Positions 5,758 to 6,522 of a stretch of 64,000 nucleotides of DNA are shown one piece after another. The translations under genes were made by a program, and so were the position numbers. The stretch's first letter is position 1; each line of letters starts with the position of its first letter. Where the stretch lies: positions 1 to 64,000 of the forward strand of contig JAUSOF010000016.1 in NCBI GenBank assembly GCA_030656145.1. Direction: 5' to 3'. The DNA is from Pseudomonas sp. Lineage in GTDB: Bacteria > Pseudomonadota > Gammaproteobacteria > Pseudomonadales > Pseudomonadaceae. Below the pieces are notes generated by a model. That model ran no database searches and was not told the origin of the DNA. It saw only the letters and a list, made by a program, of their open reading frames with translations.

Positions 5758-5785
5758 TTGACTTCCCCTTTCTAATCAGTAGGAT
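5758..5785 (+). promoter_or_regulatory. Putative sigma70 promoter of tRNA-Asn (TTGACT-N16-TAGGAT)
   Basis: -35 5758-5763 and -10 5780-5785, just upstream of tRNA start at 5798. Confidence 0.5.
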
Positions 5786-5797
5786 ACGCATGATTGT

Positions 5798-5873
5798 TCC
5801 GCGATAGCTCAGTCGGTAGAGCAAATGACTGTTAATCATTGGGTCCCAGGTTCGAGTCCTGGTCGCGGAGCCA
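5798..5873 (+). tRNA. tRNA-Asn (GTT)
   Basis: TCCGCGATAGCTCAGTCGGTAGAGCAAATGACTGTTAATCATTGGGTCCCAGGTTCGAGTCCTGGTCGCGGAGCCA. Confidence 0.97.
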
Positions 5874-6173
5874 AATTCGAAAGCCTCAGTTAATCCTGGG
5901 GCTTTTTTGTGCCCGCCGGACTCTCACCAGGGACTACGTCCCAGGTTATTCGCTTCGCTCACCCCTTCGGGGCCGCGCTGAAGCGCGTTCAGCTAACGCT
6001 GTCGAGTCCTGGTCGCGGAGCCAAATTCGAAAGCCTCGGTTAATCCTGGGGCTTTTTTGTGCCCGCCGGACTCTCACCAGGGACTACGTCCCAGGTTATT
6101 CGCTTCGCTCACCCCTTCGGGGCCGCGCTGAAGCGCGTTCAGCTAACGCTGTCGAGTCCTGGTCGCGGAGCCA
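5852..6173 (+). repeat. 150-bp tandem repeat made of the tRNA-Asn 3' tail + terminator + spacer (2 full units + third tRNA tail)
   Basis: tcgagtcctggtcgcggagcca at 5852, 6002 and 6152; units 5852-6001 and 6002-6151 differ at one base seen by eye (5888 A / 6038 G). Confidence 0.97.
5883..5911 (+). terminator. Rho-independent terminator of tRNA-Asn (repeat unit 1; same structure in unit 2 at about 6033-6061)
   Basis: AGCCTCAG-ttaatc-CTGGGGCT followed by TTTTTT. Confidence 0.8.
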
Positions 6174-6179
6174 AATTGA

Positions 6180-6210
6180 AGAACCCGGCCAGCCAGCCGG
6201 GTTTTTTATG
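6180..6210 (+). terminator. Terminator behind third tRNA-Asn tail copy
   Basis: AACCCGGC-cagcc-AGCCGGGTT followed by TTTTTT. Confidence 0.85.
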
Positions 6211-6212
6211 GC

Positions 6213-6336
6213 TATGTACCAATAGCGTGTTGCGTTCAGTTATCGCCACAGCGTTGAGGTGGTCTGGGTCTGTAGGGTGCGCCGTGCGCACCAGTGTTCG
6301 TTGCCTGCGCTGGTGCGCACGGCCTGGGCGGCCCCG
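6213..6336 (+). repeat. Dispersed ~120-bp intergenic repeat, copy 1
   Basis: tatgtaccaatagcgtgttgcgttcagttatcgccac...tagggtgcgccgtgcgcaccagtg; inverted copy at 21233-21356. Confidence 0.75.
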
Positions 6337-6522
6337 CGTCACTCTACCCGTTGCCAGCTATGCGAAAAGGGCTTAGGCCTGAATCTCCCATGCAACACGA
6401 TATTGGGACAGCGCCTTTTTTTATTGCCTGCGGACTCTCGCCGGGGATATTCGCTCCCTAAGAGGCAGCACTGAAATAATCACCAGGTGCTGCAGGAGTT
6501 CACCCGTACCGAGCGCACATGC

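Follow-up and report, generated by a model that had tools for sequence, protein, structure and literature searches.

The tyrT operon of Escherichia coli carries the RtT repeats, which to our knowledge have long been without an explanation and have so far been regarded as a curiosity of one operon. The repeat holds tpr, a small protamine-like open reading frame. RtT itself has been described as an RNA released from tRNA operon transcripts (PMC4986893). At E. coli tyrV we located copies of the tRNA 3' tail at +156, +334 and +512, a spacing of 178 nt, and each repeat contains an antisense T-arm (GGGGAAGGATGAGAAGCTTCGACC), the 5' half of the T-arm (AAGGTTCGACT), hairpins and the tail. The annotation of rttR runs up to the CCA of one of these tails, and the predicted fold of the E. 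coli repeat is closed on the tail and includes a hairpin similar to the one termed P2 below.

We describe here an element of this kind in a 64-kb window, by which we mean positions 1-64,000 of the forward strand of contig JAUSOF010000016.1 from Pseudomonas sp. GCA_030656145.1. The element is a tandem array 3' of a tRNA-Asn gene, and every unit ends with a copy of the tRNA 3' end (Table 1). An earlier note on this DNA had reported that the tRNA-Asn tail recurs at 150-bp spacing, that the two full units differ at one base, that terminators follow the tails, the third being of a different type, and that the spacer holds a GGGAC-tac-GTCCC hairpin and an echo of the T-arm, GTCCCAGGTT; all of these features were confirmed. 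The tail, TCGAGTCCTGGTCGCGGAGCCAAATT, is present as 26 identical nt at 5852, 6002 and 6152 and extends 4 nt beyond CCA, and the direct repeat D1 (5852-6001 and 6002-6151; 150 nt each, 99% identical) differs only at A5889 versus G6039. We additionally found an antisense T-arm 5' of GTCCCAGGTT, a module of GC hairpins that precedes the tail, and the decayed remains of a fourth unit.

Table 1. Features of the tRNA-Asn locus and its array, in window coordinates.
Feature	Position	Strand	Remarks
Sigma-70-like promoter match TTGACT-16-TAGGAT, 5' of tRNA-Asn	5758..5785	+	consensus match only
tRNA-Asn (GTT), host gene of the array	5798..5873	+	
Tail copy 1, the tRNA-Asn's own 3' end plus AATT after CCA	5852..5877	+	
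Terminator 1, AAAGCCTCAG-TTAATC-CTGGGGCTTTTTT	5880..5908	+	
Unit 1 segment a, antisense T-arm GGACTCTCACCAGGGAC	5918..5934	+	5' strands of P1 and P2
Unit 1 segment c, T-arm 5' half GTCCCAGGTT	5938..5947	+	P2 3' strand
Unit 1 GC hairpin module	5948..6001	+	P3 5962-5972, P4 5974-5987, P5 5990-6001
Tail copy 2, segment e of unit 1	6002..6027	+	P1 3' strand 6004-6009
Terminator 2	6030..6058	+	
Unit 2 segment a (antisense T-arm)	6068..6084	+	
Unit 2 segment c	6088..6097	+	
Unit 2 GC hairpin module	6098..6151	+	
Tail copy 3	6152..6177	+	
Terminator 3, AACCCGGC type	6182..6208	+	
Decayed remnant of a further (fourth) unit: T-run, ATTGCCTGCGGACTCTCGCCGGGGA, TATTCGCTCC / TATTCGCT	~6411..6462	+	

Each unit thus runs from tail through terminator, antisense T-arm (segment a), T-arm 5' half (segment c) and GC hairpin module to the next tail (segment e), with the consensus tail, terminator, GGACTC-TC-ACCaGGGAC (a), TRC, GTCCCaGGTT (c), ATTCGC...GCTG module, tail. 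Segment a agrees with the T-arm's reverse complement at all but two loop bases, to which the window adds one T-stem base; its complementarity is 14/17 with the window's tRNA-Asn and 15/17 in most relatives. No promoter was found inside the array units. A 128-aa open reading frame (5839-6225) was rejected as coding because most species have unit lengths that 3 does not divide (only 24/102 lengths are divisible), so that no frame is kept through the array.

The genes flanking the array encode RdgC, SugE, UvrB, an aminotransferase and ComEA. At the start of the SugE-type SMR transporter frame (1779-2192, + strand) lies a guanidine-II riboswitch match (1796-1849; 33.6 bits, gathering 32), an ordinary pairing; since the listed start overlaps the aptamer, the true start is probably downstream. 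Contigs C85 and C88 of the assembly both begin with a tRNA-Val gene at an identical position (63-138, - strand, in the window), and the contig therefore probably breaks in a tRNA repeat.

Comparison with RtT/rttR of E. coli tyrT-tyrV (RF00391) revealed the same plan: units repeated in tandem 3' of a tRNA, every one carrying the 3' tail of its host; the order antisense T-arm, T-arm 5' half, GC hairpin module, tail; and a closing stem formed with the tail. The parallel with tyrT drawn in the earlier note is therefore true, and it reaches further than proposed, into the internal order of the unit and to similar arrays at other tRNAs. The two systems differ in host gene and unit length (tRNA-Tyr and 178 nt in E. 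coli, tRNA-Asn and 150 nt in Pseudomonas), in the intrinsic terminator that every Asn unit carries and without which the tyrV/rttR order matches, and in that the Asn array has no conserved open reading frame where the E. coli repeat has a protamine-like one. RF00391 recovered its E. coli control but gave no match at 5780-6220 of the window at E<=5 and none in any of four carrier genomes. The Asn array is a new variant of the RtT kind that lies outside the Rfam RtT model.

RF00391 matched in 64 of 369 gammaproteobacterial genomes, and most of the loci examined consisted of a tRNA-Tyr, -Gln, -Ser or -Arg gene followed by its own tails, up to five in tandem. Such RtT-type arrays (L214-L259; five tails in L253) occur in many gammaproteobacterial genera. 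A search of other tRNA loci for tail repeats, as suggested earlier, found no similar array in the window's own genome, where the remaining tail repeats are complete tandem tRNA genes. Like the Asn array, RtT-type arrays have their own tails in tandem, the module and then the tail, and an antisense T-arm near +46 to +60 followed by GGTTCGAC; some also share a terminator after each tail (L245 and L254 at Ser, L251 at Arg). They differ from the Asn array in isotype and lineage, in matching RF00391 and in the strand of the module. R1, a covariance model of the unit core, gave only weak matches at RtT loci, and those in L213 and L214 lay on the opposite strand, an observation that led to a test of module orientation. 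The motif CCCGNAGGG is on the - strand in 92/108 Asn units and on the + strand in 36/37 RtT-type units, which were picked out by a model that itself includes the motif; the reverse was never seen. The module is thus common to both kinds of unit but inverted.

The hairpin module is also found in dispersed, MITE-like Pseudomonas repeats (L138-L157; for example L138:260-560), and L138 shares ~45 identical nt with the array's central module. These repeats have CAGGCCGTTGAAAAAC / GTTTTTCAACGGCCTG or CTCTAAAAAC ends, and the module occurs in other contexts as well (L156, L008). Apart from the central module shared by the CAGGCCGTTGAAAAAC..GTTTTTCAACGGCCTG repeats, they are unlike the array: they do not lie beside tRNAs, they lack the tRNA tail and antisense T-arm, and their ends are different.

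Segment a can pair with c (P2) and with the tail e (P1). In the resulting structure model a copy of the T-arm has its T-loop opened to take in the module, and both halves of this copy are tied up by a. Across 79 sequences, 97.4% of cells in the hand-drawn structure were paired, versus 29-40% when it was slid. One P5 pair occurs as A-U (38), G-C (24) and U-A (17) with no broken case; compensatory changes are few overall (three pairs, one strong). The RNAalifold consensus on A1 is a different, weak fold, so that the case for P1 and P2 comes mainly from conservation and from the parallel with E. coli. The predicted fold of the L245 Ser unit has no P1 to the tail, so the closing stem is not universal. 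The 113-nt core of a single sequence is modestly more stable than its shuffles (z -1.96); for the 413-nt tRNA-plus-array sequence z is -7.6, a value that includes the tRNA and the terminators.

Scanning a single genome of each species for pairs of tails separated by 110-140 nt, we obtained 69 loci, all in Pseudomonas or Stutzerimonas except one record labelled only as a gammaproteobacterial MAG. The comparison of related Pseudomonas that the earlier note had called for thus yielded arrays in at least 69 genomes, each with one tRNA-Asn and 1-3 extra tails (2-4 in total), mostly at 142-160 nt spacing. Wherever the flanks of a carrier were long enough, the upstream gene was the same aminotransferase with uvrB behind it, which indicates a single orthologous locus. 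Strong R1 matches were confined to tRNA-Asn arrays; matches of any score were found in 41/300 genomes of the genus, and R1 matched 63/199 genomes of the family, in 8/19 sampled genera of Pseudomonadaceae. In P. aeruginosa the gene content of the locus is the same, but there is no array, just one tail and a terminator. In the aminotransferase tree (in which row L055 is misplaced, its contig having no aminotransferase), P. aeruginosa and other non-carriers fall among the carriers, so the array has likely been lost there; such repeated losses, P. aeruginosa included, indicate that it is not essential. We found no description of a Pseudomonas tRNA-Asn array in the openly accessible literature searched.

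Conservation of the unit was assessed in 1711 species pairs. First-unit P1/P2 identity was 0.89-0.91 (0.94 in the closest pairs), and identity at four-fold sites of the aminotransferase dropped to 0.47, where 0.41 is expected by chance. Because P1/P2 identity stays high where four-fold sites are near saturation, the proximal unit is under purifying selection and is conserved well past the neutral expectation. Exchange between species could account for part of the flatness of unit identity across divergence bins. Terminators were present after 68/70 first, 31/32 middle and 50/68 last tails (17/1400 in random windows), with 55 distinct stem pairs. The proximal array is thus maintained, and decay affects the distal ends. 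In the core, first units match the consensus only slightly better than last units do (identity 0.899 versus 0.875), with the first unit favoured in 11/21 arrays and the last in 7/21. The array is widespread, real and under selection, contrary to the possibility of a neutral one-off duplication that the earlier note had kept in view.

The best-supported function, judging from sequence, is production of an RtT-like RNA by terminator read-through. Most tRNA-Asn transcripts would end at terminator 1; a read-through RNA would enter the unit, fold compactly and stop at the next terminator, and the following tail would then be processed at its CCA like a tRNA 3' end, releasing a stable RtT-like RNA. 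With a terminator ahead of each unit, little unit RNA may be made. The array would be both a fail-safe end of the tRNA-Asn transcript and a source of tRNA-tail small RNA, and unequal exchange between tails would shift copy number and hold the tails to the tRNA's own sequence as distal units decay. We give an even chance to this reading as a whole, that is, an ancient, selected RtT-type element on the tRNA-Asn of Pseudomonadaceae whose read-through RNA is processed to an RtT-like RNA and which also serves as a fail-safe end.

Fail-safe termination could instead be the only function, with stacked intrinsic terminators separating a highly transcribed tRNA from a convergent comEA, and unit RNA as a by-product. 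Consistent with this, nearly every proximal tail is followed by a terminator despite differing stem sequences, and comEA is convergent 3' of the array in many carriers. However, comEA was not detected downstream in many others, many RtT-type arrays at other tRNAs have no strict terminator (first tail 13/35), and it is P1/P2 that is most conserved rather than the terminator, whose identity is 0.61-0.67 in all but the closest pairs. We therefore consider termination alone to be rather unlikely.

Tails and segment a also track the adjacent tRNA. At a variable T-stem base the tail agrees with the adjacent tRNA in 101/102 copies (83 A/A, 18 T/T, one exception), and in G165 and G329, whose tRNA-Asn copies differ from each other, the array matches the adjacent gene and not the second one. 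Segment a changed along with the tRNA in all three independent comparisons, which is not significant (p 0.25). Of 50 first units from species with the A-type base, 41 have a segment a perfectly complementary to tRNA nt 46-54, and 49 have a mismatch in a:c. Across isotypes, the host's own tRNA is strictly the best match of the antisense T-arm in only 15/39 loci, because T-arms are alike. Customisation of the antisense T-arm to the host tRNA is thus suggested rather than proved. The complementarity and co-change of segment a would fit regulation in cis, in which segment a of the read-through RNA invades the upstream tRNA-Asn T-arm or is kept away from it by c and e, making maturation depend on termination efficiency. 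Against such regulation, the independent events number only three, the window is an exception (a T-type tRNA-Asn with an A-type segment a), and in the structure model a pairs inside its own unit; we give it a slim chance.

Variable copy number, decay of distal units and repeated losses are what a neutral tandem duplication sustained by slippage and unequal crossing over would produce, but within-genome homogenisation cannot yield first-unit conservation between species near synonymous saturation, and internal terminators are retained with diverse stems, which makes this origin highly improbable. Least credible of all are integrase attachment-site remnants, raised as attB-like duplications in the earlier note, or a minimal mobile element integrating in the tRNA-Asn T-loop: the repeats do start in the T-loop and extend past CCA, like the direct repeats attL/attR of tRNA-targeting integrases, and the hairpin module is common to dispersed repeats, but a phage or attachment-site origin was rejected since 40 genomes held no stray tails (their other exact tails were the single one expected for a second tRNA-Asn), the unit is absent from phage and plasmid records, tails on viral contigs belong to complete tRNA genes, no recombinase was found among named neighbours and no recombinase gene or cargo between tails (spacers of ~125 nt without genes), no array at other sites or att copy elsewhere was found in relatives, and the array occupies one orthologous locus in all carriers with checkable flanks and has been under long-term constraint.

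Returning to the RtT-type reading, a broader and more tentative proposal, which we regard as possible though doubtful, is that tRNA-tail arrays are a general gammaproteobacterial RNA class customised to the host tRNA (Tyr, Gln, Ser, Arg, Asn), in which a mobile hairpin module was opened into a T-arm copy and an antisense T-arm co-evolving in cis would control tRNA maturation or a tRNA-tail small RNA. The Asn array defines an RNA element that is missing from Rfam. With the RtT architecture present on tRNA-Asn, selected across Pseudomonadaceae, and on four more isotypes elsewhere, its function becomes testable by comparison, and that comparison singles out the antisense T-arm, the stem closed on the tail and the terminators as the important parts.
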